Source: a virus. Taken from it: a stretch of 31,427 bases of DNA. This document shows, one piece after another, positions 796-17,167 of this stretch. Made by a program: the position numbers and the translations under genes. The stretch lies in IMG/VR virus record IMGVR_UViG_3300042868_000457, positions 1 through 31,427 of that record; one strand, written 5' to 3'. A model generated the notes under the pieces. The model was not told the DNA's origin. It ran no database searches and saw only the letters and a list, made by a program, of their open reading frames with translations. The stretch's first letter is position 1. The number at the start of each line of letters is the position of its first letter.

Positions 796-996
796 TTATT
801 TAACTGCCTTTAAAACTTCACTATCCACCCAGTCTCCAATCTGGGCAGGCATCCAACCATTTTTTTGTTGGCGGCCCAGGTGAGTGCTGGCCATGTGGCA
901 ATAAGTATTGCCATCACGCTGTGCGCCCACAGCGACAATGCGCCATGTGTCGCCCAGATGGACAATGACTTTGTTGAAGAGTTGGTTTGTGTTCAT
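796..996 (-). CDS. Hypothetical protein, 66 residues
   Basis: The minus-strand ATG at 996 opens MNTNQLFNKVIVHLGDTWRI and the protein ends in DWVDSEVLKAVK. It alternates beta-like stretches (VIVHLGDTWRIVAVG, then NTYCHMAST) with a short polar helix (GRQQKNGWMPAQIGDWV), which suggests a small single beta-rich domain. This is the first gene of the left-going cluster and lies downstream of the candidate promoter at 1029-1056. Its ribosome binding site is poor. No homologous family is recognised. It is the gene most directly exposed to regulation by the divergent HTH gene at 1109. Confidence 0.6.
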   Translation of the reverse strand: MNTNQLFNKVIVHLGDTWRIVAVGAQRDGNTYCHMASTHLGRQQKNGWMPAQIGDWVDSEVLKAVK

Positions 997-1028
997 TTCG
1001 TTTAATCCGTTTTGTGTTGGTGTAACGA

Positions 1029-1056
1029 ATTATGCCAGAAAACAAATATGTGTAAA
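1029..1056 (-). promoter_or_regulatory. Candidate sigma70 promoter for left-going genes
   Basis: On the minus strand TTTACA (1056-1051) is separated by 16 bp from CATAAT (1034-1029), close to the -35 and -10 consensus. The predicted transcription start, near 1022, lies shortly upstream of the gene at 996. It sits in the 112-bp gap between divergent genes, where an operator for the HTH protein would be expected. Confidence 0.5.
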
Positions 1057-1072
1057 CAATTATTTTTATCTG

Positions 1073-1102
1073 TTGTTTTTTTACATATACCGCAATTAGA
1101 AT
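1073..1102 (+). promoter_or_regulatory. Candidate promoter giving a leaderless HTH mRNA
   Basis: On the plus strand TTGTTT (1073-1078) and TAGAAT (1097-1102) are separated by 18 bp. A start 7 bases after the -10 would fall on the A of the ATG at 1109. No Shine-Dalgarno sequence lies upstream of that ATG. Together these suggest a leaderless transcript, as known for the lambda cI message from PRM. This is an inference from spacing only. Confidence 0.4.
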
Positions 1103-1108
1103 GCGGCC

Positions 1109-1309
1109 ATGGAATCAATTCACACAATACGCGCAAGGGCCAAGGCTCACAAGATAACCATGTCTGCGGTGTGCGAGGAGGCTGGCATCCAGCAGTCCCA
1201 AGTCAGCCGGTGGCTGTCTGGAACTGTGGAGCCATTGTGGACATCAGTCAATCAATTGCACTTGGCGCTTAATAAACTGATCGACAAATCACCAGTCATT
1301 GTCGATTGA
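1109..1309 (+). CDS. Small Cro/CI-like helix-turn-helix regulator
   Basis: The 66-residue protein has a helix-turn-helix at about residues 16-38. It reads TMSAVCEEAGIQQSQVSRWL, with the Ala-Gly turn and the Gln-Ser-Gln-Val-Ser-Arg-Trp recognition helix typical of the lambda-repressor/Cro fold. The rest is a short helical tail (NQLHLALNKLIDK), which may dimerise. There is no peptidase or other added domain, so it resembles Cro more than CI. It is divergent from the left-going cluster and converges with the SSB gene, whose 3' end it overlaps by 21 bases (1289-1309). It probably represses one or both divergent promoters. Whether it controls lysogeny cannot be told: no integrase is in view. Confidence 0.75.
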   Translation: MESIHTIRARAKAHKITMSAVCEEAGIQQSQVSRWLSGTVEPLWTSVNQLHLALNKLIDKSPVIVD

Positions 1310-1852
1310 AGGTGCGGCAGCTGGCGCCTTGCCGGCCACCACGCCAAAGTCAGATGCAGCCGATGGCTTTGCACCACCAAGCGAGTCACCCTTGGCCAAG
1401 AGCATGATGTTGTTCAAGCCATACGACACGCCCTTGTTGCCTGCCTGGTCATAGGCATAGGCATTCAAAGAAACCCTGCCATAGTCGCCAGAGACAATAT
1501 CTTGTGATCCAAGAATGTCATGGCCATGGGCATCCACTGCACCAGGCTTGTTGGTGCTTTTGGTGTTGAAAAAGTAATGCCCTGCATATTCAGCACTCAG
1601 TGGTGATCCATCCGACTTGGTTTCAGTGTCGCCATCACGCAATGGATTGCGAATGGTTTTCGGAATCTTGTCTCCAAACTTGGCTGTCAACGCTTCTTTG
1701 GCTGCGGCCTTTAACTGGGCCACTGTCTCGGTATCAGTCTTTGGGACCAACACTTGCGTTGAGAACTCTTCTTTGCCGTTCATCTCATTCTTGCGCGCAG
1801 TCAATGCTGAGAAATAAGAGAAGCGAACTTTACCGGTTACGACTCGTGTCAT
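1289..1852 (-). CDS. ssDNA-binding protein, DUF2815 / T7 gp2.5-like
   Basis: The 187-residue protein begins MTRVVTGKVRFSYFSALTAR and matches the DUF2815 pattern of phage single-stranded-DNA-binding proteins. It has beta-rich N-terminal strands, the segment FSTQVLVPKTD, a central DGDTETKSDGSPLSAEYAGH loop, and KGVSYGLNNIMLLAKGD near the end. The tail is a flexible Ala/Pro linker ending in the acidic-aromatic IDNDW. This resembles the acidic C-terminal peptide through which T7 gp2.5 and bacterial SSB recruit partners. AAAGGA precedes the ATG. It is transcribed away from the helicase, with both promoters in the 1853-1960 gap. Its likely role is coating ssDNA during replication and recombination with the helicase, nuclease and primase genes to its right. 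Confidence 0.8.
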   Translation of the reverse strand: MTRVVTGKVRFSYFSALTARKNEMNGKEEFSTQVLVPKTDTETVAQLKAAAKEALTAKFGDKIPKTIRNPLRDGDTETKSDGSPLSAEYAGHYFFNTKSTNKPGAVDAHGHDILGSQDIVSGDYGRVSLNAYAYDQAGNKGVSYGLNNIMLLAKGDSLGGAKPSAASDFGVVAGKAPAAAPSIDNDW

Positions 1853-1868
1853 GGTTTTTCCTTTTAAG

Positions 1869-1897
1869 GGTTTAGGGTTTTACGTTTCTGTCGTCAA
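1869..1897 (-). promoter_or_regulatory. Candidate promoter for the SSB gene
   Basis: On the minus strand TTGACG (1897-1892) is followed after 17 bp by TAAACC (1874-1869). The -35 is good and the -10 weak. It lies 17 bp upstream of the SSB ATG at 1852, leaving a very short leader that still contains AAAGGA. Confidence 0.35.
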
Positions 1898-1904
1898 ACA
1901 GAAA

Positions 1905-1932
1905 TTGCACTTTAGCACAAATCGGATATGAT
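1905..1932 (+). promoter_or_regulatory. Candidate sigma70 promoter for the replication operon
   Basis: TTGCAC (1905-1910) and TATGAT (1927-1932) are separated by 16 bp on the plus strand. They lie just upstream of the helicase gene, whose GAGGA ribosome binding site is at 1949-1953 before ATG 1961. This is the best plus-strand promoter candidate for the long right-going gene run. Confidence 0.55.
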
Positions 1933-1960
1933 GCAAACAACTTAAAACGAGGAAACGATC

Positions 1961-3187
1961 ATGCAGTTATTCCCCCACCAGCAAGAGGCCAAGCTCTTCT
2001 TGCTGTCCAGGCGCAGGGCCATACTGGCCGACCAGCCACGGGTTGGTAAGACGCTACCCACAGCAGCTGCTGCACTTGAAAACCTCCCAGCTTTAATCGT
2101 CTGCCCAGCCATTGCCAAGACAGTCTGGGAGGCGGCCTTTGCCAGGCTGGCGCCCAACGTCTCAGTCTATGTCATCAATGGAAAACGTGAGGCTGCACTG
2201 CCAAATTCAGCCGATGTGACCATCATCAACTACGATGTTTTGCAATATGCGCAAACGGATTTGGACAGATATAAGACCCTAGTTCTCGATGAGTGCCATA
2301 GGATTAAGAACCCAAAGGCCCAAAGAACGAAGGCCGCAATGCTGGCCATGAAGAAAGTAAGCCATGTCTACGCGCTCAGTGGCACACCAATTCCAAATAG
2401 GCCCATCGAGCTGTGGCCTGTTCTGCACGGCCTTGGCATCTACAGGGGCGGCTGGTACGACTTTGCGGCCCGTTACGCAAAGATGTGGAACGCGCCATGG
2501 GGCTTGGACACATCAGGCGCCAGCAACTTGCCAGAGCTAAAAGACTTGATGAAGCCCCATGTCCTGAGACGCAAGAAGGAAGACATCTTCAAGGACTATC
2601 GTGACCCACAGGTCAGTCTGATCACTTTTGATCTGGCTAATGACAAGCGTGAGCAATCCTTTGATGCCGATGCCTTGATGGCCAACCCCAATGCCTTGCT
2701 GGCCTTTGAAGGCTTGGCAGAGATCATGCGCGAGGCCGGTATGCGCAAGGTGCAATACGCTGCCGACTTCATCGATGACTTGCTCCAGGCCAACGAGCCG
2801 GTGGTGGTGTTTGCGCACCATAAGGATGTGGTCCAAGCCCTGCAAGATGAACTTAAGACCCACAAACCAGTGGTCATCACCGGTGAAACGCCACGCGCCA
2901 AACGCGACAAGGCGCTTAAAGACTTTCAGTCCGGCCAGACCCAACTCATCATTGGCAACATTGCCGCCATGTCTGAAGGTGTGGACCTATCGGCTGCCGA
3001 CACGATTGTTTTTGTTGAATGCACTTGGTCCACATCAGCACTGGAGCAGGCCAGTAGCAGGGTCGAGAACATCAACAAATCTGGCATTCCGCCCGTCATC
3101 TACATTCTGACCATTAAAGCAAGCCTAGACCACAATGTGCTGGCCAAGGTCCTAAAGAAGCTCAATGTCGTCAACCAAATCATTTAA
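1961..3187 (+). CDS. SNF2-type superfamily 2 DNA helicase
   Basis: The 408-residue protein has the superfamily 2 motifs in order. An N-terminal LFPHQQEA Q-like motif is followed by Walker A DQPRVGKT (residues 24-31), the VCPAIAKTVW Ia region, DECH at 110-113 within LVLDECHRIKN, the LSGTPIPNRPIELW motif III, and AMSEGVDLSAAD motif V. Compact SNF2-like helicases of this size are common in phage replication modules. They probably remodel forks or recombination intermediates using ATP. Motif VI is odd: at about residues 362-370 it reads QASSRVENI, where the usual QAxxRxxRxGQ has a second arginine. A GAGGA ribosome binding site and promoter precede it, and the nuclease gene follows 12 bases after the stop. 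Confidence 0.85.
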   Translation: MQLFPHQQEAKLFLLSRRRAILADQPRVGKTLPTAAAALENLPALIVCPAIAKTVWEAAFARLAPNVSVYVINGKREAALPNSADVTIINYDVLQYAQTDLDRYKTLVLDECHRIKNPKAQRTKAAMLAMKKVSHVYALSGTPIPNRPIELWPVLHGLGIYRGGWYDFAARYAKMWNAPWGLDTSGASNLPELKDLMKPHVLRRKKEDIFKDYRDPQVSLITFDLANDKREQSFDADALMANPNALLAFEGLAEIMREAGMRKVQYAADFIDDLLQANEPVVVFAHHKDVVQALQDELKTHKPVVITGETPRAKRDKALKDFQSGQTQLIIGNIAAMSEGVDLSAADTIVFVECTWSTSALEQASSRVENINKSGIPPVIYILTIKASLDHNVLAKVLKKLNVVNQII

Positions 3188-3199
3188 CCAGGAGAAACC

Positions 3200-4213
3200 A
3201 TGCAACATGAAACCCGAAAACACGCCCGACTCTCAGCATCCAAAACAGACCGCTTCATGTCTTGCCCTGGCTCATACCGGCTTGAGTCCCTCATGCCTTA
3301 CGAACCCGCAGGCGAGGCGGCTGCCATTGGCACAGCGATCCATGAACTGTCTGAGATCATCCTGTCTGGCAAAGAAGTGCCAGCTGGCACTGACAAAGAT
3401 CAAGTGGCTATGGCGCAATCTTACGCAGACTTTGTGAACACTTTGGTCGAAAATCCCCGTAAAAAGCTGATTGAAGTCAATTTAGACGAAGGCTTAAAGT
3501 CTCTGCACCCAGCGCTTGGCGGCACAGCTGACGCCATCCTGGTTGATGGGGACCACCTCCATGTCATTGATCTTAAGACTGGGCGTGTGGCTGTTGACGC
3601 AAATGAGAACAAGCAGCTGCTGACCTATGCCCTTGGTGCTATGCGCCAGCTCAAGGCGCCAAGCACCATCACCTGCACCATGCACATCTTCCAGCCGCGG
3701 GTTGGCCACAGCAAGTGGACAGTGTCTGGCAACTACTTGAACTTGCACGGCAGGCGCTTGCTTGAAGCAGCCGAGCTGGCGCTGACTTCAGACGCGCCTA
3801 CAAACCCAAGCCCAGATGCCTGCCGGTACTGCAAGGCCAAGACCATTTGCCCCAGTATGCGCGAGAAGGTCCAAGAGGTCGCTAGAAACGATTTTCTGCC
3901 TGACACCACTGTTACCCCTGAGATGCTCGATGACGCTGTCCTGATGGCCGCATGGGCCGATGCAGTGCAGTCTGCCGCCAAAGAGCAGTTGACCAGCGGC
4001 AAGTCCATCCAAGGCTGGACCATGCGCATTGGCCGCAAGACCAAGTTTTGGAAGGATGAGGCGCTGGTCCAAGAAGCATTCAAAGACTTGCTGATTGCAT
4101 GGGAACTCAAGTCCCCCAGTGCCGTCTTGAAACTCGGGGTCGAGGTGAGCGAAGACCTAGTCGGTGAGAAGGTGGCTGCATCTTCCCTAGTCAAAGAAAA
4201 GTCCAAGGAATAG
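3200..4213 (+). CDS. Cas4/RecB-like PD-(D/E)XK nuclease, DUF2800
   Basis: The 337-residue protein follows the DUF2800 layout. The N-terminal SASKTDRFMSCPGS carries Cys22. GTAIHE is near residue 44, the Asp of GGTAD near 110, and VIDLKTG near 123 supplies the D-x-K of the PD-(D/E)XK active site. QLLTYALG is the downstream Gln/Tyr motif. A late CRYCKAKTIC cluster (about 208-217, C-x2-C-x5-C) together with Cys22 makes the four ligands of a Cas4/AddB-style 4Fe-4S cluster. It is probably an exonuclease for recombination or end processing, paired with the SSB and helicase. A ribosome binding site (CCAGGAG) lies before the ATG. I see no CRISPR array, so a Cas4 role in adaptation is unsupported. Confidence 0.82.
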   Translation: MQHETRKHARLSASKTDRFMSCPGSYRLESLMPYEPAGEAAAIGTAIHELSEIILSGKEVPAGTDKDQVAMAQSYADFVNTLVENPRKKLIEVNLDEGLKSLHPALGGTADAILVDGDHLHVIDLKTGRVAVDANENKQLLTYALGAMRQLKAPSTITCTMHIFQPRVGHSKWTVSGNYLNLHGRRLLEAAELALTSDAPTNPSPDACRYCKAKTICPSMREKVQEVARNDFLPDTTVTPEMLDDAVLMAAWADAVQSAAKEQLTSGKSIQGWTMRIGRKTKFWKDEALVQEAFKDLLIAWELKSPSAVLKLGVEVSEDLVGEKVAASSLVKEKSKE

Positions 4214-4230
4214 AATCCAAACCTCACGCC

Positions 4231-4269
4231 AAAAGAAAAGACCTGATAGCGCGTAAACGCTACCAGGTC
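4231..4269 (-). terminator. Intrinsic terminator facing left (antisense)
   Basis: Arms 4240-4251 and 4258-4269 form a 12-bp stem with a 6-base loop. In the minus-strand RNA every position pairs: the single non-Watson-Crick position is a G.U wobble, whereas the plus-strand RNA has an A.C mismatch there. The stem is followed in the minus direction by TTTTCTTTT (4239-4231). Polarity and pairing therefore both favour a rho-independent terminator for leftward transcripts, although all flanking genes run right. Confidence 0.55.
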
Positions 4270-4325
4270 AAAGGTCAATCTCTCATGGCAACTTACAAAT
4301 GAAACCCCAACTTAAAGGAATTTCA

Positions 4326-6470
4326 GTGCCAACTATAACTGAAACACCCCTGCCAGACACGTTCAGCCAGTCCCAGTCTGTCGCCTGCAAAATTGGCGCT
4401 GTCGCCCCTGATGCCGTCTTCTGCACGTTTGCCCTGCAAGGCAGCAAAAAGATTCCATTCAAGCGAAGCGGCCAAGGTGTTGCCCGTGACACTGACCAGA
4501 CAGACCTCTATAGCTCCGAGGACATCTGGGCCATGGACTCATGCCCATTCGGCCAGTATCTCGGCCTAGTCCAGCAGCGCCCTATCATTTCCGCATCAGG
4601 CAACTATTTGGTTTGCCTCGATGTGGACATGAAGCACGCATCTGGCCCCACCAACGTGGCCATCCAGCGCATGGCCAAGTATGTCAAGGCCAACAACATG
4701 CTGACCGAGGTGTCAGTCAGTGGCCGTGGCCGTCATGTCTTCTTATGGGTCCAGCCACCACCAGTCAAGGACATGATTCTCCCCAAGTACAAGCTAGGCG
4801 GTGGTCAGGAACTCGAAGTATTCGGCCTGCCAAACAGTGCCGGTAAGTCAGTGCTACTGAGTGGCAATGCCGTGGTCGGTGAATTCCAAGAGGCCGTAGA
4901 CCTCTACGATTTACTGAAAGACTGGGGCATCATTGAGCAGCACCAGCTCCAAGAGCCAAAGCCTGCACCAGTGGCCACACAATCATTTGACTTCACCCAA
5001 TTAGGCTCAAGGCTGGAAGACAGCGACCTTGATCGTGCGGTCAAGGCTTTGCACCATATTTCCCCAGACTGCGACTATGACCAGTGGATTGAGCTGGGCC
5101 AAGCGCTGCACACCGAATTTGGCGAGGCGGGATTAGGCCCATGGATGACATGGTCCATGGCCGGCAACAAGTTTGCAGGGACCAAGGACATTGAGACCCA
5201 CTGGAAGAGCTTCCACCAGGGCAAAGGTGTGGGGCTTGGCACACTCTTCAAGCACGCCAAGGACTGTGGCTATGAGCCACCCACCAAACAGACCGAGCGC
5301 AAGTCAGCGGTAGAAGACTTTGCTGCGGTGATTGGCCAAGCGCCAGCCACAACCGATGCACCAGCACCACAAGGCTGGCCAGAGCGCCAGCTGTCTATTG
5401 GCAACCTCAAGCCTATCCGCTACATGGTTAAAGGCTTTTGGGCACACAGCTTTATGGTGCTGGCCGGTCAGCCTGGCATCGGCAAGACCACAGCTGTCAT
5501 CAGTCTGTGCATGGTCATGGCAGGCCTACAGGCCAAAGACTGCGAACTCACAGCCACCAAGAAACGTAAAACAATCATAGTGACTGAAGACTCGGACCAG
5601 GTCGAAAGGACTCTCACTGGATATTCACGCCATTATGGGATTAGTGCCAGTGAACTCGCCAATTGGTTTGTCATCATCGATGCCAAAAGAAGCCAAGTTA
5701 AAGATTTACTCATGCTTGCACATAATGTGATTCACCACACAATAGATAATGTCCGGCCATTATTGGTATTAGATACTGCCAATGCCACAATGGATATTGA
5801 TAATGAGAATGACAACTCAGAAGTGGGTAGCTTTATTGCCGCCCTTAAACAAACAATCTACATCCAGCTGGACACGCCAGTCTGCATCATCACACACACC
5901 AACAAGACCATCAGTAAGTCAGACTCAGATGCCACAGCCCGTGGAGCATCAGCATTCACCGGTGATGCAACATTGACCGGTGTCCTCTTTGAAGACGAGA
6001 CCAAGACCCGCTACATGCGCCTGGTCAAGACCCGCTACCAGCCCAACTTTAGAGAAATCAAATTCAACTCAGATGTCTTTGCCGACACAGTCCTCGATGA
6101 AGACGGGGACATCCAAGAGCAGATGGTTCTTTTGGTCGTGCCAGCCAAGTCCTCGGAAGATGACCGAAGGCAGGCAGCCAACGACCGGCAGAACGACAAG
6201 CGCCAGCAACAGGTCCAAGATGCCGCAGACGCTGCCTGCAACTTTGTCCAGTCCATCATCAACGCCAAAGGCGCGGTCATCATGCGCAGAGGCTCTGGCC
6301 GCCCAAGTGTCCCAAAAGAAATGCAATCAATGCACCAACTGGAGTGGGCTGACATCTATCAGGTTGTGCCAATGGCGGACCAAAGCTATGCGAGACGGGC
6401 AGTTGGCGCGGCCATATTTCAGCGCTTCTGTCAGGACCAGTCAAGCTCTGGATGGGTTCAAATAAAGTAA
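4326..6470 (+). CDS. Primase-helicase: prim-pol, PriCT-2, RepA-like ATPase
   Basis: I choose the GTG start at 4326, giving 714 residues, because AAAGGAA lies 5 bases upstream. An in-frame ATG at 4299, overlapping a 5-codon mini-ORF (4285-4302), would give 723. An N-terminal archaeo-eukaryotic primase-like (prim-pol) domain carries CLDVDMKH (about residue 97) and SVSGRGRHVFLW (about 130). A PriCT-2-like domain spans about 230-300 (YDQWIELGQAL, WMTWS). Then comes a RepA/AAA_25 hexameric helicase core with Walker A GQPGIGKTT (381-389), TEDSD, and Walker B PLLVLDT near 480. The charged tail (DDRRQAANDRQNDKRQQQ) may contact partners. It should prime and unwind DNA at the origin. The iteron array begins on its stop codon, as in plasmid rep-ori units. 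Confidence 0.82.
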   Translation: MPTITETPLPDTFSQSQSVACKIGAVAPDAVFCTFALQGSKKIPFKRSGQGVARDTDQTDLYSSEDIWAMDSCPFGQYLGLVQQRPIISASGNYLVCLDVDMKHASGPTNVAIQRMAKYVKANNMLTEVSVSGRGRHVFLWVQPPPVKDMILPKYKLGGGQELEVFGLPNSAGKSVLLSGNAVVGEFQEAVDLYDLLKDWGIIEQHQLQEPKPAPVATQSFDFTQLGSRLEDSDLDRAVKALHHISPDCDYDQWIELGQALHTEFGEAGLGPWMTWSMAGNKFAGTKDIETHWKSFHQGKGVGLGTLFKHAKDCGYEPPTKQTERKSAVEDFAAVIGQAPATTDAPAPQGWPERQLSIGNLKPIRYMVKGFWAHSFMVLAGQPGIGKTTAVISLCMVMAGLQAKDCELTATKKRKTIIVTEDSDQVERTLTGYSRHYGISASELANWFVIIDAKRSQVKDLLMLAHNVIHHTIDNVRPLLVLDTANATMDIDNENDNSEVGSFIAALKQTIYIQLDTPVCIITHTNKTISKSDSDATARGASAFTGDATLTGVLFEDETKTRYMRLVKTRYQPNFREIKFNSDVFADTVLDEDGDIQEQMVLLVVPAKSSEDDRRQAANDRQNDKRQQQVQDAADAACNFVQSIINAKGAVIMRRGSGRPSVPKEMQSMHQLEWADIYQVVPMADQSYARRAVGAAIFQRFCQDQSSSGWVQIK

Positions 6471-6538
6471 ACCGGTAAACCGGTAGTAAACCGGTAGTAA
6501 ACCGGTATACCGGTTTAGATAATGGCAGGTCTGTTGGT

Positions 6539-6566
6539 ATAAGTGGGGGTCTTTAGACCCACTTAT
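6539..6566. repeat. Long hairpin inside the candidate origin
   Basis: ATAAGT (6539-6544) pairs with ACTTAT (6561-6566) and GGGTC (6547-6551) pairs with GACCC (6556-6560). The loop is TTTA and GG is bulged. The right arm runs into the DnaA box at 6563-6571. Such a structure could act as a single-strand initiation site for the primase domain, or as a transcription barrier. No T-run follows it, so an ordinary terminator is less likely. Confidence 0.6.
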
Positions 6567-6571
6567 CCACA
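6563..6571 (+). promoter_or_regulatory. Perfect DnaA box
   Basis: The nine bases TTATCCACA match the strong DnaA box exactly. It overlaps the right arm of the origin hairpin, so DnaA binding and hairpin extrusion could compete. Confidence 0.7.
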
Positions 6572-6673
6572 GGCCAATCTGGTCAGTTTTGATGGTCAGA
6601 AAAGTAAGGCGGTAAACCGGTAGATTTCCTTTGTCCATACCGGTTTACTTTTCACTGTTTTTGGAGGTTTTAG

Positions 6674-7018
6674 ATGGTCCAACAAGTTGAGCAGTTATCC
6701 ACAGGTTATCCACATTCTAAGGAATTGGTCGAAGATGAGCGCGTTTTCTGCCATCAGTGCAGTAAGGCGGTAGAAGTGGAGCAGCGCCAGTCTATGCCAG
6801 CCGAGCAGATGGAGCGCCACAGAAAGGTCAACGCAAAGCCATTGCAGTGGATGTTTGACCAGGCAAAGGTTAAAGGTGGATGGGCAACAGTCACATGGTC
6901 CGAACACCAGTGCGGCCAGACCGGCCTTGCGGCATTCCCGACCGATGTCAAGCACCGGTGTCATATGTTCCAGACCAAAGCCTCGGCAGTAGAATCCGAA
7001 GAATGGTGGTTGACTTAA
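6674..7018 (+). CDS. Hypothetical Cys/His-containing protein, 114 residues
   Basis: GGAGG lies 6 bases before ATG 6674, an excellent ribosome binding site. Near the N-terminus CHQC (about residues 26-29) is a CxxC pair, and later Cys and His residues (SEHQC, KHRCHMF) could complete one zinc site. The middle is helical and charged (SMPAEQMERHRKVNAKPLQW). No known family is recognised. It is encoded right of the iterons. Two of the perfect DnaA boxes lie inside its first 14 codons, where they encode part of LSTGYPHS. The upstream inverted iteron pair could regulate it. It may be an origin-binding or nuclease-linked factor, given its position before the VRR-NUC gene, but this is only context. 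Confidence 0.7.
   Translation: MVQQVEQLSTGYPHSKELVEDERVFCHQCSKAVEVEQRQSMPAEQMERHRKVNAKPLQWMFDQAKVKGGWATVTWSEHQCGQTGLAAFPTDVKHRCHMFQTKASAVESEEWWLT
6695..6714 (+). promoter_or_regulatory. Two perfect tandem DnaA boxes inside a gene
   Basis: Exact TTATCCACA copies lie at 6695-6703 and 6706-6714, 11 bp apart start to start, so they face the same side of the helix. They fall inside the start of the coding sequence at 6674. With the copy at 6563 they make three exact matches in 152 bp. Confidence 0.75.
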
Positions 7019-7386
7019 AACGCAAACGAAAAAGCATTGAACACATTGACCAGGTCAAGGTGGTGCAACACTTTCGAGCGTTCTATCCGGACATCATCAT
7101 TGCGGCCATACCCAATGGTGGCGACAGAACGGCCTCAGAGCGCGTCAGATTGCATTCTGAAGGGGTATTGGCAGGGATGCCTGATCTTTGTGTCCTAGAG
7201 CCTAAAAACGGGTTCCATGCGTTGTTTGTGGAGATGAAGACCAAGGCCGGAGTGGTCTCAGCCAAGCAAAGCGCTGTAAATTTGCAGTTAAATGCAAAAG
7301 GGTATCGAGCAGTGGTCGCCAGATCAGCTGCCGAAGCAATCAAAAAAATCGAGGAGTATCTGAATGGCACGCAACTCACTGGCTGA
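7003..7386 (+). CDS. VRR-NUC family nuclease
   Basis: The frame is open further left, but homology begins near ATG 7003, giving 127 residues and a 16-base overlap with the previous gene. The protein shows the phage VRR-NUC pattern: IPNGGDRTASERVRLHSEGV, then the catalytic Asp in AGMPDL, the E-x-K in LFVEMKTKAG, a conserved Gln in SAKQSAV, and AKGYRAVVARSAAEAIKKIE at the end. VRR-NUC domains are PD-(D/E)XK nucleases. Stand-alone phage versions are thought to resolve or trim branched DNA during replication or before packaging. The 3' end overlaps the small terminase gene by 23 bases, so the two are probably co-translated. The length is normal for the family. Confidence 0.85.
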   Translation: MVVDLKRKRKSIEHIDQVKVVQHFRAFYPDIIIAAIPNGGDRTASERVRLHSEGVLAGMPDLCVLEPKNGFHALFVEMKTKAGVVSAKQSAVNLQLNAKGYRAVVARSAAEAIKKIEEYLNGTQLTG

Positions 7387-7852
7387 AATAGCCGACCAAG
7401 GCGCTGCAAACATTGCAGCAGCACAAGCCAGAAAAGCTGAAGTCAGCCTGGCCAACAAAGCTATCCACAAATTTGGTGGTGAGGATGCCGTAATCGAATT
7501 CATTGCATCGGGCGGCACGATCTCCGCACTGTGCAAGCTATTGGGGGTCGGGAATACCACGTTTGATCGGTGGCTAGAAAAAGGTGGCGAGACGCGCAGG
7601 ACCGCCTACGCACGCGCACGTGTGCGCGCAGGGCAGAGTTTAGCAGAGCAAACCATCGATATTGCAGACGCTGCCACACCTCAAGAGGCGCAGGTGGCCA
7701 AGCTACGGGTGGACACAAGGCGCTGGCTGGCCTCCAAGCTCTCTGAAGAGTTCAGCGACAAGCAGCAGCCACTGGTCAACATCGACCTTGGAAGCATGGC
7801 CCTTGATGCACTGCGCAAGCGATCTGTCGTATCACTAGACGATTCTGCATAA
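7364..7852 (+). CDS. terS: Terminase small subunit, Sf6 gp1-like
   Basis: The 162-residue protein has an N-terminal Ala-rich helix, then a helix-turn-helix (GTISALCKLLGVGNTTFDRW, about residues 51-70). Next comes RTAYARARVRAGQSLAEQTI, an acidic DIADAATPQEAQ segment, and KLRVDTRRWLASKL. This order is characteristic of Sf6-type small terminase subunits, which bind the packaging site and feed DNA to the large subunit. The central oligomerisation helices sit in the A/R-rich stretch. TerL does not follow directly: the 7853-8179 gap and four tiny genes intervene. The protein's target could be the GC-rich block in that gap. Confidence 0.8.
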   Translation: MARNSLAEIADQGAANIAAAQARKAEVSLANKAIHKFGGEDAVIEFIASGGTISALCKLLGVGNTTFDRWLEKGGETRRTAYARARVRAGQSLAEQTIDIADAATPQEAQVAKLRVDTRRWLASKLSEEFSDKQQPLVNIDLGSMALDALRKRSVVSLDDSA

Positions 7853-8179
7853 ATGAATACCAAATGATTCAGCTACTTTATACAACGACCATTATGTTAA
7901 GTGGATAACTAGATATCCACAGAATTAAGTGCATCAAAGTATTACAAGCCTACTTATGCACAGGAATCTGTGGATAAGGTTGGCCAAAATCTGGGGGTAA
8001 GTCGGTGGTGGCCTGCTGGCGCCTGGTGGCCGCGACCCCCCCCTTGGCCGGTTTGGCGGGGGCGACTGTGGCGGCACTAAACACCTACAAAAAAAAATTT
8101 TTAAAAAACTTTTGAACTAGTTGACATAAAACGCAAAAAGCACCGACAATCTAATCTCCACAAACAACGGAGAAAACGA
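7853..8179. other. Intergenic gap: second DnaA cluster, GC block, A/T tract
   Basis: No gene is seen. In order the gap holds four DnaA-like sites. Two fit TTATNCACA: TTATGCACA at 7954-7962 and TGTGGATAA (minus-strand box) at 7969-7977. Two have one mismatch, at 7900-7908 (minus) and 7913-7921 (plus). A very GC-rich block with repeated GGTGGCC/CTGGCG words and a C8 run (8036-8043) follows, then a 25-bp A9-T5-A6-C-T4 tract (8089-8113) and a promoter. It could be a second origin half with an unwinding element. The GC block next to terS could alternatively be a pac or cos site. Both are inferences. Confidence 0.6.
8121..8150 (+). promoter_or_regulatory. Candidate sigma70 promoter for the packaging operon
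   Basis: A consensus TTGACA at 8121-8126 is followed after 18 bp by GACAAT (8145-8150). It lies just upstream of the chain of five coupled genes that starts at 8180 and ends with TerL. The A/T tract at 8089-8113 could act as an UP element. Confidence 0.6.
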
Positions 8180-8344
8180 ATGAAATCTAAGCTGGCGACA
8201 GTGGTTATCAAGGACCAAGAGTGGATAGTCTTAGACACTGATGAGGCTCAAGACAAGAAAGTGTTCTGCAAGCTAATGAGCTTGGATGGCACAATTGTCT
8301 GGCACGCATGGGTCGATATTAACTTGATCGTGGGGATAATATGA
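8180..8344 (+). CDS. Hypothetical protein, 54 residues
   Basis: The sequence starts MKSKLATVVIKDQEWIVLDT and ends WVDINLIVGII. GGAG lies 7 bases upstream of ATG 8180, and a good promoter is about 30 bases upstream. The pattern is alternating beta strands (LATVVIKDQEWIVLD; GTIVWHAWVDINLIV) around a polar turn, suggesting a tiny beta-sheet protein. The stop overlaps the next start as ATGA (8341-8344). No family is recognised. It is the first gene of a five-gene coupled chain leading into TerL. Confidence 0.65.
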   Translation: MKSKLATVVIKDQEWIVLDTDEAQDKKVFCKLMSLDGTIVWHAWVDINLIVGII

Positions 8345-8502
8345 ATATTACGTTATTAACTAAGGTGAGGCAATTATTTAATGTCGATTATGTGCCTGCG
8401 CATACTAATCGACATAATCAATTGCAATATATCAAGGCACTAAGGCAATTAGGTAATAGGTGGTTAATTCACCCTGATAATAAAATAAATAGAATCCAAT
8501 GA
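8341..8502 (+). CDS. Hypothetical basic protein, 53 residues
   Basis: It starts on an ATGA overlap with the previous gene and ends on another with the next (8499-8502). The protein begins MNITLLTKVRQLFNVDYVPA and contains RHNQLQYIKALRQLGNRWLI followed by HPDNKINRI. It is basic and mostly helical, and could be a small nucleic-acid-binding protein. No helix-turn-helix is convincing. The local DNA is more A/T-rich than the flanking terminase genes. I recognise no family. Coding status rests on precise stop-start overlaps at both ends. Confidence 0.62.
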   Translation: MNITLLTKVRQLFNVDYVPAHTNRHNQLQYIKALRQLGNRWLIHPDNKINRIQ

Positions 8503-8696
8503 AGAGTAATTTTGTCAATAACCATGTGAGATTGAATGGGAATGTGCATGGCCACAAATTGCAGTTATGCAATAAGTGCGCTTTAAAAAAGCCACCAGAG
8601 GGTGGGGTTGAGATGAGTGCGACTAGGTGGTTGTGTGCATCATGCTGGACCGACAGGATCACGGGTCAGAACTTAAAGCAAGCGAGGATTAAATGA
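8499..8696 (+). CDS. Small zinc-ribbon-like protein, 65 residues
   Basis: Two CxxC knuckles are present, LCNKC near residues 24-27 and LCASC near 50-53, separated by a Gly/Pro-rich loop (KKPPEGGVEMS). This is the layout of a treble-clef or zinc-ribbon fold with four cysteine ligands. Flanking residues are basic (HVRLNGNVHGHKLQ, then TGQNLKQARIK), which suits nucleic-acid binding. It is coupled by ATGA overlaps to the genes on both sides. Small zinc proteins next to terminase genes are frequent in phages and some are HNH-related, but the HNH residues are not clear here. Function is not assigned. Confidence 0.68.
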   Translation: MKSNFVNNHVRLNGNVHGHKLQLCNKCALKKPPEGGVEMSATRWLCASCWTDRITGQNLKQARIK

Positions 8697-8896
8697 CTGA
8701 TTTATTGACAGCGATGCATTTGTCTGTGATGTTGTTGGATTTGAAGATCAGGATGATGGAGGCGATCAATGAGGAGAGGTTTGACCTGGCGATGACCATG
8801 CATTTGCTGATACTGGTGCGGACTGATGAGCTAGATGCGCATAAGTGGGCGATGAGTCCTAAAGCCTGGGCCATCTATGAGACTATCCACCCATGA
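8693..8896 (+). CDS. Hypothetical helical protein, 67 residues
   Basis: This protein is Met- and Leu-rich and almost entirely helical. It starts MTDLLTAMHLSVMLLDLKIR, then EAINEERFDLAMTMHLLILV, and ends AWAIYETIHP. Amphipathic helices without a long uninterrupted hydrophobic run argue against a membrane segment and for a small helical bundle or a partner of TerL. It is linked by ATGA overlaps to the zinc-ribbon gene before it and to TerL after it (8893-8896), so its translation is probably tied to TerL. No family is recognised. Confidence 0.62.
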   Translation: MTDLLTAMHLSVMLLDLKIRMMEAINEERFDLAMTMHLLILVRTDELDAHKWAMSPKAWAIYETIHP

Positions 8897-10302
8897 GTAA
8901 AGAAAATGTGTTTGCTGCGTGGGTGGAGAGGTATCAGCCTGATCCGGTGCTGTTTGTGCGGGAGGTGTTGGGGGTTGACCCTGACCCGTGGCAGGTGAAG
9001 TTTCTTGGGGCGATTGCCCGTGGGGATCGGAAGATCAGTGTTAGGAGTGGCCACGGGGTGGGCAAGAGTACGGCAAGCAGCTGGGCCATGCTCTGGTACT
9101 TTATGACTAGATCGCCCGTCAAGGTGGTGGTGACTGCACCGACAAGTAGTCAGCTGTATGACGCGATGTTTGCGGAGCTGAAGCGCTGGATCAATGCGAT
9201 GCCATTGCCATTGCAGGGGTTGTTGACTGTCAAGCAAGAGAGGATTGAATTCAATGCGGCCCCGACTGAGATGTTTATTTCGGCCAGGACAAGTCGGGCA
9301 GAGCAGCCAGAGGCTTTGCAGGGGATTCACTCGGAGAATGTGATGCTGGTGGCTGATGAGGCTTCTGGTGTGCCGGAGCAGGTGTTCGAGGCCGCGGCTG
9401 GAAGTATGTCGGGGCATAACGCGGTGACGCTGTTATTGGGGAATCCGGTGAGGTCTAGTGGGTTCTTTTACGACACCCACACGCGCCTGGCTGATGAGTG
9501 GACCACGTTTCAAGTGGCGTGTACTGACTCGCCACGGGTGTCGGATGAGTACGTCAAAGAGATGGCCATGCGCTATGGCGAGGAGAGTAACGTCTACCGG
9601 ATCAGGGTGATCGGGGAGTTTCCAAAAGGCGATGACGACACTGTGATTGCCATGGATTTGCTGGAGAGCGCGGTGAATCGGGATGTGGCGCCAAGTGAGT
9701 ACGCGTCCATGATCTGGGGCTTGGATGTGGCGCGGTTTGGCTCGGACAGGTCAGCGCTGTGCAAAAGGCAGGGCAATGCGGTGACTGAGAACATTAAGAC
9801 TTGGAAAAACTTGGACCTGATGCAATTGACTGGTGCGGTGGTTGCCGAGTACCAGGCACTGCCGCCCAGCCAGCAGCCAAAAGAAATTCTGGTCGACAGC
9901 ATTGGCCTTGGCGCTGGGGTGGTGGACAGGCTCAGAGAGCTGGGCCTGCCGGCCAGAGGCATCAACGTGTCAGAGTCCCCAGCCATGGGCGGGACTTATA
10001 GGAATTTGAAAGCAGAGCTTTGGTACAGGGCACGGGCGTGGCTGGAGGCGCGGGACTGCAAGATGCCAAAGGATGATGTGCTGATATCTGAGCTGGCCAC
10101 AGTGCGGTACTCATTCACCAGTAATGGCAAGATCGCCATTGAGGGGAAAGACGAGATCAAGAGACGCGGCCTGCCAAGTCCTGACAAGGCTGATGCCTTT
10201 GTCCTGACGTTTGCGTCTGATGCGGTGATGGGGATGTATGGCAGCAGTGGCTCAAGTAAGTGGAGCCAGCCACTGCGCAGAAACCTGTCGCGGGTTGCAT
10301 AA
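8893..10302 (+). CDS. terL: Terminase large subunit (packaging ATPase-nuclease)
   Basis: The 469-residue protein has both terminase domains. The N-terminal ATPase carries PDPWQVKFL (adenine-motif-like), Walker A SGHGVGKST (residues 52-60) and Walker B VMLVADEAS with catalytic Glu near 156. The C-terminal RNase H-like nuclease has WGLDVARFGSD (first Asp near 277), ILVDSIGLGAGVVDRL and the late SPDKADAFVLTFA Asp motif. Length and motifs fit Sf6/P22-type large subunits. It drives ATP-dependent DNA translocation through the portal and cuts concatemers, with the small subunit at 7364 recognising DNA. Translation is coupled to the previous gene by ATGA. The Gly/Ser tail (GSSGSSKW) is a flexible end. 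Confidence 0.92.
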   Translation: MSKENVFAAWVERYQPDPVLFVREVLGVDPDPWQVKFLGAIARGDRKISVRSGHGVGKSTASSWAMLWYFMTRSPVKVVVTAPTSSQLYDAMFAELKRWINAMPLPLQGLLTVKQERIEFNAAPTEMFISARTSRAEQPEALQGIHSENVMLVADEASGVPEQVFEAAAGSMSGHNAVTLLLGNPVRSSGFFYDTHTRLADEWTTFQVACTDSPRVSDEYVKEMAMRYGEESNVYRIRVIGEFPKGDDDTVIAMDLLESAVNRDVAPSEYASMIWGLDVARFGSDRSALCKRQGNAVTENIKTWKNLDLMQLTGAVVAEYQALPPSQQPKEILVDSIGLGAGVVDRLRELGLPARGINVSESPAMGGTYRNLKAELWYRARAWLEARDCKMPKDDVLISELATVRYSFTSNGKIAIEGKDEIKRRGLPSPDKADAFVLTFASDAVMGMYGSSGSSKWSQPLRRNLSRVA

Positions 10303-10332
10303 TTCACACATCCACAACCAAGAGGTAAAGCA

Positions 10333-10824
10333 ATGGCTACTTTAAAACGCACCATGGAACAGGTCATGGACCGAGATATGGAAGAGGAGATGGGCGAGGA
10401 CATGAGCGCAGGCGAGAACTGCCCATTGCCCACGCAAGACATTACGTTGAATTTAAAAAACCGCGCCAAGGCAATTACCAGCGCGGCCTATGGTCCTGAG
10501 AATCCCAAGCTGCCAAATGAGGCTTTTTGGCGCAAGAAGTCAGACCAGTGGGATGTGAGCATTGAGGACTCAAAGAAAAGCCTGTGCGGTAACTGCGCGG
10601 CATTCAATGTGTCTGATAATCTGAAAGAGTGCATTGCCCAAGGTATTGGCATGGAAGCAGACCCTTGGGGAACAATCAAGTTGGCCGATCTGGGTTACTG
10701 CGAAATCTTTGATTTCAAGTGCGCAGCAAGCAGAACTTGCGATGCATGGGTGGTGGGTGGCCCCAATACGGGTGAGCAGGGCGGTGAAGAATCTGAAAAC
10801 TATGAAGAGGGAGAAGAGGAATGA
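10333..10824 (+). CDS. Cys-rich acidic protein, possible metal site, 163 residues
   Basis: The ribosome binding site AGAGG precedes ATG 10333. The N-terminus is acidic (MDRDMEEEMGEDMSAGE) and the C-terminus very acidic (EESENYEEGEEE). Between them lies a cysteine cluster: CGNCAAF, KEC, GYC, FKC and RTCDAW. Spacing CxxC then GYC then TCDAW resembles small high-potential iron-sulfur (HiPIP-like) proteins, which read CxxC...C...GWCSAW, but the match is partial and zinc binding is an alternative. It lies between TerL and two lysine-rich genes and overlaps the next gene by ATGA. Similar Cys-rich proteins occur in phage packaging and head operons with no known role. Confidence 0.7.
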   Translation: MATLKRTMEQVMDRDMEEEMGEDMSAGENCPLPTQDITLNLKNRAKAITSAAYGPENPKLPNEAFWRKKSDQWDVSIEDSKKSLCGNCAAFNVSDNLKECIAQGIGMEADPWGTIKLADLGYCEIFDFKCAASRTCDAWVVGGPNTGEQGGEESENYEEGEEE

Positions 10825-10973
10825 AACAAGGTTTGTATTCCAATATTGCAGCAAAACGTGAGCGTATAGCCGCAGGCTCGAAAGAGAAGATGCGCAAGCC
10901 AGGTAGCAAGGGAGCGCCAAGTGCTGCCGACTTCAAAGCCGCAGCCAAAACTGCAAAGAAGCCAAAGAAATGA
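10821..10973 (+). CDS. Small lysine-rich protein, 50 residues
   Basis: The frame overlaps the previous gene by ATGA (10821-10824) and the next by ATGA (10970-10973). The protein starts MKQGLYSNIAAKRERIAAGS and is rich in Lys, Arg, Ala and Gly, ending KTAKKPKK. It is strongly basic and probably disordered. The motif SKEKMRKPGSKGAPS is typical of short phage proteins next to DUF6321-like genes. It probably binds DNA or acidic partners, perhaps the very acidic protein encoded just before it. That pairing is an inference from charge. Confidence 0.7.
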   Translation: MKQGLYSNIAAKRERIAAGSKEKMRKPGSKGAPSAADFKAAAKTAKKPKK

Positions 10974-15937: not shown

Positions 15938-17167
15938 ATGGCTATCGTAAGTAACACGTTCTTGAGCTATTCAGCCAAGGGCATCCGCGAAGACTTGAGC
16001 AATATCATCACAAATATTGCACCAGAAGAGACTCCATACATGAGCAATATTGGCCGTGAAAACGTGTCAAATGCTTTGTTTGAGTATCAAACAGATACAT
16101 TGGCCGCAGCCGCTGCCAATGCACAGCTTGAGGGCGATGATGTTGCATCGTTTGACGCTGTGACTGCTACTGTGCGTATGCAAAACTATGCGCAGATTTC
16201 ACGCAAGACAATCATCTTGTCAGCTACTGAAGAAGTGGTTAACAAGGCAGGCAGGCGCTCAGAATTAGCCTACCAAATTGCGAAGCGAGGCGCGGAATTA
16301 CGTCGCGACCAAGAATTCGTGATGTTGAATGGCGGTATCGCTGTTTCTGGTGATTCGACAACTGCCCGTGTGACTGCTTCTTTGGGTGCGTTTATCAAGA
16401 CGAACACAGACAAGCAGACCAATGGTACTGATCCATCTTACACAACGCTGCCAAACAGCGCCCGTACAGATGGCAACGTGCGCACATTCACTGAAACCAT
16501 TCTTAAGAATGTGATTCAGAAAGTGTGGACTGCTGGTGGTACACCTAAGATTTTGATGTGCGGTCCTGTTAACAAACAGCGCGTGTCAGGTTTCTCTGGT
16601 ATTGCCTCAAGCCGTTTCAACATTGATGGAGGAGCAAAGCCTGCAACCCTAGTGGGTGCGGTCGATATCTACGTTAACTAATGGCGTCGATAAGCAGTAA
16701 TGCTTATTTGTAACTAGGTGAATTCGGTGAACCTCCTAACTGTCAGGCCGGACAGAGGACAATACCGAGCCAAGCCGAGAAATCGGAAGGTGTAACGACT
16801 AGAGGCGGGAGCCTCGTAGGACCAAGCGGTCCGAAGTGCCTAGCCCCTCATAATGAGGGTGAAGAGATAGTCTGATCTACCAAGTAACTGGTAGCCTCGA
16901 AAGAGGGATGAGAAAATAGCGAATCTCATTTAACATTGATGCAGTGATTTCGGCAATGTGCAAGTGATTGCAAACCGCTTCCAGCGTGAGCGCGATGCAT
17001 GGGTGATCGATCCTGACTATGCCAAGATGACAGTGCTGCGTCCTTACCAGCAAGTTGAATTGGCCAAGACTGGCGATGCTGAAAAGCGTATGCTGATCGT
17101 TGAGTGGGGTCACAAAGTGTTGGCTGAAAATGCCCATGGTTTGGCAGCAGACTTGGTTACTTCTTAA
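15938..17167 (+). CDS. Major capsid protein (DUF5309/SU10-like), intron-split
   Basis: The capsid protein is encoded in two parts, 15938-16674 and 16942-17167, separated by a group I intron. Joined they give 320 residues. Exon 1 starts after TGAGGAAATT and encodes MAIVSNTFLSYSAKGIREDL, SPEETPYMSNI-like IAPEETPYMSNIG, and ISRKTIILSATEEVVNKAGR, typical of DUF5309 HK97-fold capsids. The splice joins IYV to SDFGNVQVIANRFQ, a segment expected to be continuous in this family. Exon 2 ends ENAHGLAADLVTS. Unspliced, translation stops at 16679-16681 after 247 residues (YVN-stop), missing the last P-domain strands. A strong terminator follows at 17184. Confidence 0.88.
16675..16941 (+). ncRNA. Group I self-splicing intron, 267 nt, no ORF
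   Basis: Pairings read from the sequence: P1 joins exon end 16671-16676 to 16682-16687 with T16674.G16684 as the splice-site wobble. P2 is 16690-16695/16702-16707. A P5/P6-region hairpin is 16740-16744/16751-16755. A GAAA-capped hairpin is 16775-16786. P7 is GACTA 16797-16801 with TAGTC 16868-16872, inside the classic GAAGAGATAGTCT. Insert hairpins are 16819-16832 and 16845-16859. P9 is 16877-16882/16889-16894. A GAAA hairpin is 16895-16906 and a P9.2-like stem 16908-16913/16924-16929. The intron ends in G16941. No homing endonuclease ORF fits in it, so it would move only with help. Subgroup not assigned. Confidence 0.88.

Follow-up and report, generated by a model that had tools for sequence, protein, structure and literature searches.

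A probable theta-type replication origin downstream of a primase-helicase gene, with an exchangeable initiator domain and iterons, in a group of related phages

We analyzed the region downstream of a predicted replication initiator gene, termed rep, in the IMG/VR virus record IMGVR_UViG_3300042868_000457, a linear record of 31,427 bases that is referred to below as the window. Since the window encodes a portal protein and a major capsid protein of the SU10 type, its assignment to a podovirus in an earlier note on this DNA is reasonable. The rep gene (4299-6470, + strand) encodes a protein with a predicted primase-polymerase (prim-pol; residues ~28-213), a PriCT-2 domain (residues 249-320; Pfam PriCT_2, E 2e-18), a helicase of the RepA/DnaB type (residues 391-616; Pfam AAA_25, E 2e-17), and a C-terminal domain (residues 620-723). 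In an AlphaFold2 model of Rep (mean pLDDT 70, pTM 0.41), residues ~28-213 have the fold of the phage NrS-1 primase-polymerase (Z 13.9), and the helicase has that of RSF1010 RepA (Z 8.2-8.3) and DnaB (Z about 8). The C-terminal domain (6156-6467, + strand) is modeled with good local confidence as a long helix and a winged-helix-like unit; it is putatively iteron-binding, with a putative recognition helix at residues 696-710. A sequence search of the PDB gave nothing for the C-terminal profile, and its sole matches to full-length Rep, to repeat proteins, were judged spurious. The earlier note had reported no phage DNA polymerase in the window. This holds for family A polymerases, of which 12 near-complete or complete records yielded none, but the N-terminus of Rep has the prim-pol fold, so that Rep may itself act as a polymerase.

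Immediately behind rep lies an array of iterons. Exact copies of GTAAACCGGTA occupy 6467-6477, 6475-6485, 6486-6496, 6497-6507 and 6612-6622 on the + strand (iterons 1 to 5) and 6638-6648 on the - strand; a further inverted copy (6508-6518, -) has one mismatch, and degenerate iterons with the sequence GTAAGGCGGTA occur at 6604 (6604-6614, +) and 6762. Allowing up to two mismatches, the window contains 13 copies, compared to 3.07 expected, and none of 100 shuffled sequences reached 13. Iteron 1 begins on the final base ahead of the rep stop codon (TAA, 6468-6470), and the stop codon is thus inside the iteron. Seven copies, five direct and two inverted, had been described as starting exactly on the stop codon; the five direct copies and one of the inverted ones are exact, whereas the second inverted copy is mismatched and the array starts one base earlier. 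Several direct iterons of the same sequence beside an initiator gene, with DnaA boxes adjoining them, are two of the features by which an iteron-type theta origin is recognized, and both are found here.

The DnaA box TTATCCACA occurs exactly at 6563, 6695 and 6706 on the + strand and at 7969 on the - strand, four times against 0.25 expected for the window. Box 1 (6563-6571) lies partly within the stem of a hairpin (6536-6568, +; core stem 6539-6547 / 6558-6566), which carries part of the box on its 3' arm; the predicted folding of the segment 6467-6714 is 5.5 standard deviations below that of dinucleotide shuffles. The hairpin and the three boxes of this segment agree with the earlier description, which had overlooked the fourth box at 7969. 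A correction is needed for boxes 2 (6695-6703) and 3 (6706-6714), both on the + strand, which sit at the start of the next gene (6674-7018), within its coding sequence.

To compare this layout among relatives, we used 80 loci from IMG/VR with Rep at 73-98% identity, and more distant clades (Rep at ~50-68%) were reached starting from MW202879 and L171. MW202879.1 (L088), a circular phage of 36,472 bases from Manatee Spring, is the sole close named relative. Among 84,980 species genomes there was a single match, L171 (CAINTF010000009.1), a 9.9-kb phage-like contig that was probably misbinned in an Acidimicrobium metagenome-assembled genome. The group consists of uncultured freshwater phages and is widespread. 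The order of iterons, hairpin and DnaA boxes recurs with near-fixed spacing in ~70 of the related-phage loci, which bears out the earlier recognition of these elements beside a RepA-like initiator. TTATCCACA was counted 75 times across 18 relatives whose contigs measure 31.9-38.6 kb, and 72 of these sites fall into two clusters downstream of rep; in most relatives the boxes of the first cluster are found at ~+95/+107, +227 and +238 from the rep end.

Boxes 2 and 3 are conserved at the level of codons. In 60 distinct sequences, which are related and so do not represent 60 independent events, the box codons show no synonymous variation (TTA 60/60, ACA 60/60, and TCC for 45/45 Ser), while the spacer codon between the two boxes encodes Gly, Ser, Ala, Cys or Asp. 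In loci of iteron class C, defined below, the frame of 6674-7018 is not open further downstream, and the two boxes are nonetheless kept. As judged from this pattern, the DnaA boxes are preserved against coding constraint, and the proposal that the phage uses host DnaA is well supported by their conservation. The hairpin was present in all loci tested but L205 in an automated test. Its 19 distinct stems show compensatory changes at several pairs, including three pair positions beside the box with three or four pair types each (for example, G-C 11, C-G 5, A-T 3), and the TTATCC of the box is constant on the 3' arm. L061 and L033 have single compensated changes in the stem, and in L005 the hairpin box is TTGTCCACA with the partner base altered to match, so that the pair is retained. 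MW202879 and L171 have other stems at the equivalent place. The scan gave no TTATCCACA at the first-box position of L081.

Three main iteron classes were distinguished among the relatives: A (GTAAA[CG][CA]GGTA), B (GTAATGCGGTA) and C (CTAAT[GA]CGGA). Copies within one genome mostly agree, with some mixing of subtypes, and between relatives they change largely in concert. All 14 Rep columns that separate class A from class B lie at residues 628-717. Likewise, the 44 DNA sites that separate A from B are all within 6180-6616 and those that separate C from A and B all within 6100-6699, with none elsewhere in 4300-7770; widening the scan to ~971-10871 added only a few, all toward the right-hand limit, which four class B sequences still reach. 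On trees, the class changes twice for 6130-6467, the minimum for three states, as compared to 16 changes for the N-terminal part of rep, 7 for the helicase part, 13 for the downstream flank, and ~24 for shuffled class labels. Iteron class is not followed by the helicase part, for which there are two alleles: among loci with class B iterons, L033, L038, L040 and L041 carry one and L051-L054 the other. In five further contigs that were found through the array sequence alone, the type of the C-terminal domain matches the array. This comparison of sequences indicates that the Rep C-terminal domain, the iterons and the hairpin (6100-6694, +) are inherited and swapped as one cassette of ~0.5-0.6 kb, and the C-terminal domain probably reads the iterons. 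Exchanging the two together allows the specificity of the origin to change and leaves the catalytic core of Rep as it is. Satellites using the same iterons were considered and rejected: among 53 contigs with arrays, the new ones examined carry Rep wherever upstream DNA is present, and three contigs seemingly without it encode a Rep of 61-62% identity.

Taken together, these elements very probably constitute a theta-type origin downstream of its own initiator gene, whose product is a helicase of the prim-pol/PriCT-2/RepA-like kind that ends in a winged-helix-like domain. Several points weigh against this reading or the cassette within it. First, the iteron block (6467-6714) has at most 62% AT per 40 bp and contains no clear AT-rich unwinding element. 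Second, the winged-helix match is weak: the best two structural matches of the C-terminal domain alone were to cullin C-terminal regions (Z 4.5 and 4.2), presumably the winged-helix domain of the cullins. P4 alpha and ORF904 were not listed in that search, which covered 142 chains, and their absence is therefore no evidence against kinship. Third, since the classes were defined from the iterons, sites near the iterons are linked regardless. If linkage were the only cause, the signal should fade to the left and right of the iterons alike; class linkage instead extends ~370 bp into rep, up to the domain boundary, and stops ~50 bp beyond the last iteron; this asymmetry and the coincidence with the domain boundary carry the argument for a cassette. 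Fourth, L244 has class A iterons together with a diverged C-terminal domain that lacks the class A residues, so that the 14 columns cannot be read as a simple recognition code and reflect lineage as much as contact. Fifth, GC skew, proposed earlier as a check on the locus, is confounded. In nearly all genomes its cumulative minimum does fall at the iterons. At four-fold sites, however, early genes of either strand are rich in C on the strand that encodes them, and G is not consistently in excess on the right arm; because the skew at these sites follows the coding strand, it was not counted.

A second cluster of DnaA-like boxes, arranged as two inverted pairs, is located 1.4 kb from the iterons at 7901-7977 (7901-7909, -; 7913-7921, +; 7954-7962, +, TTATGCACA; and 7969-7977, -, the exact box). 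It is found at ~+1400 to +1530 from the rep end in most relatives with enough sequence, is highly conserved across the iteron classes, and is also present in the distant relative L349; MW202879 has no DnaA boxes there and keeps a C run and an A/T run. The cluster is followed by a conserved block (~8000-8070) that is GC-rich and contains a C run, beyond the small terminase gene, and then by the most AT-rich stretch of the window (8089-8131). The block and A/T-run region (7980-8131) is also found in MW202879 and L349. Within the AT-rich stretch, 8092-8131 is 85% AT, the joint highest 40-mer of the window; the stretch is a candidate unwinding element or, alternatively, an upstream element of a promoter-like TTGACA/GACAAT (8121-8150, 10/12 matches). 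The second cluster could represent the unwinding part of an origin split in two, a late promoter under DnaA control, or a packaging site.

This region bears on two other explanations of the iterons. They could be an operator through which Rep autoregulates its own operon or the downstream genes, with replication starting elsewhere, for example at 7900-8131. Iteron plasmids often use iterons as operator and origin alike, the array lies between rep and the next gene, and the second cluster pairs DnaA boxes with the most AT-rich stretch. We consider an operator of this kind unlikely, given that every clade has the DnaA-box hairpin and boxes among or beside the iterons at a near-fixed distance, even MW202879 with its lack of second-cluster boxes, and that no sigma-70-like site was found on the + strand between 6300 and 7880. 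A pac or cos site recognized by the small terminase subunit, whose gene lies shortly downstream (7364-7852), would fit the nearby GC-rich C-run block, which may itself be a packaging site. For the iteron region, however, this is very unlikely: the small terminase gene contains no class-separating site and so does not track the iterons, and we know of no packaging role for DnaA boxes.

The earlier note had also considered derivation from a phage-plasmid, in which the iterons would serve as a centromere or as the plasmid origin of a plasmid-like prophage with partition. The iteron and DnaA design is indeed plasmid-like (PMC4980987), a 66-aa Cro/CI-type helix-turn-helix protein is present, and MW202879 carries a gene annotated as gamma-delta resolvase. 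The latter gene (MW202879.1, 966-1634) lies beside the small terminase gene, at the region of the second cluster; a multimer-resolution function of its product would be plasmid-like. Against this, neither ParA (PF13614) nor a tyrosine integrase (PF00589) was found in the 12 near-complete or complete records, in which ParB and other partition types were not searched, and Rep has no full-length plasmid relative, since plasmid matches extend over no more than 32% of its length, chiefly the PriCT-2 domain. In addition, the sole match in the species genomes is the phage-like contig L171. A phage-plasmid replicon is thus improbable, and we regard the origin as plasmid-like in design, with plasmid ancestry or lifestyle not supported.

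For the theta-type origin, the conservation of its elements, the covariation in the hairpin, and the co-segregation of the C-terminal domain with iteron class were established by comparison, and we infer iteron binding, DnaA use, helicase loading, the polymerase, and the direction of replication. The winged-helix-like domain of Rep would bind the iterons just behind rep and assemble the prim-pol and helicase there, while host DnaA would occupy its boxes. Once single-stranded, the hairpin would display the DnaA box in its stem, and DnaA could then load host DnaB, following the principle of the A-site/ABC primosome. The ring helicase and prim-pol of Rep would serve the fork, with polymerization by host Pol III, the prim-pol, or both. 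A more tentative extension, possible but doubtful in our judgment, is an origin in two halves around three genes, the iteron/hairpin half at 6467-6714 and the DnaA-box/AT-rich half at 7900-8131. Here the Rep prim-pol/helicase and host DnaA-DnaB would be loaded separately, and repeated swapping of the cassette would be driven by co-infecting phages or by parasites that target the origin.

Two observations concern other parts of these genomes. In the window, an RF00028 group I intron (74.5 bits; 16665-16894, +) lies at the end of the capsid open reading frame 15938-16681, and the open reading frame 16958-17167 resembles the remainder of the SU10-type major capsid gene. In L349, the early genes include three open reading frames on the - strand (5192-6553, 7576-8445 and 9656-10306) that were not seen in the window, namely a DNA cytosine methyltransferase-like gene, a PAPS-reductase-type-like gene, and one further extra gene.

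Several known systems share parts of this arrangement. Rep resembles NrS-1 polymerase in its N-terminal prim-pol fold; the NrS-1 priming site, reportedly the 8-nt TTTGGTTA, occurs here in two copies, without excess, and was rejected as an element of the locus. NrS-1 has an SF3 helicase (PMC7102993), unlike Rep. P4 alpha unites a primase, a helicase and a winged-helix domain for binding of the origin repeats in a single protein (PMC4234260); with its prim-pol and RepA-type helicase folds and a predicted, weakly matched winged-helix-like domain, Rep may be built in a similar way. In contrast to the SF3 helicase and toprim-like bacterial-type primase of P4, Rep has an AAA_25/RSF1010 RepA-type (RepA/DnaB-type) helicase and an archaeo-eukaryotic prim-pol, and its origin has DnaA boxes and a DnaA-box hairpin. 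The pRN1 protein ORF904 combines prim-pol, helicase and winged-helix, with an origin stem-loop directly 3' of the gene that is conserved in shape and variable in sequence, an arrangement proposed to be shared by related phages (PMC4234260). The present protein and the position of its origin are similar, whereas pRN1 has an SF3 helicase, a long stem-loop and no iterons, and no DnaA box is described for it there (PMC4234260).

The A-site is defined by a DnaA box within a hairpin stem, which lets DnaA load DnaB on single-stranded DNA (PMC6127211). The conserved hairpin described here has a DnaA box in its stem and, by analogy, might act in the same way; the likeness is one of sequence, and just 6-7 of the 9 box bases are in the stem. 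The initiators of iteron-type theta plasmids are small Rep proteins that are not known to carry a primase or helicase. The plasmids RK2, P1, F and R6K have iterons and DnaA boxes beside the initiator (PMC4980987), as found here. They differ in that no unwinding element is evident in the present iteron block. The lambdoid origin, by contrast, has its iterons inside the O gene and uses the helicase loader P, and to our knowledge it has no DnaA boxes. Lambdoid O binds four iterons via its amino-terminal half (PMC4488673), and in the passage of PMC6022878 that cites Furth and Yates (1978) the O initiator domain and iterons are treated as exchangeable specificity types, a likeness to the iteron classes described above.

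In the PLE satellites of Vibrio cholerae, RepA/ori modules are exchanged as well, and their specificity was proven by swaps (PMC8263062). There, the element is a satellite whose protein has RepA_N at the N-terminus and no prim-pol or helicase described, whereas here the phage itself carries a contiguous cassette. A simple explanation for the swapping of origins would be that it avoids cross-replication or attack directed at the origin, for which PLE satellites provide a demonstrated case. The phages provide a natural set of initiator-domain/iteron pairs, of at least three classes, in genomes that otherwise recombine freely; such a set allows a protein-DNA recognition code and rules of origin exchange to be derived and tested. 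The comparison suggests that in this group the phage-encoded primase-helicase is coupled with host DnaA, a pairing that we did not find described in the literature searched. As far as the sequences allow us to judge, what is new is the union of a RepA-type helicase and an archaeo-eukaryotic prim-pol with iterons, boxes for host DnaA and a hairpin that carries one, together with a compact cassette that has been exchanged repeatedly among phages.
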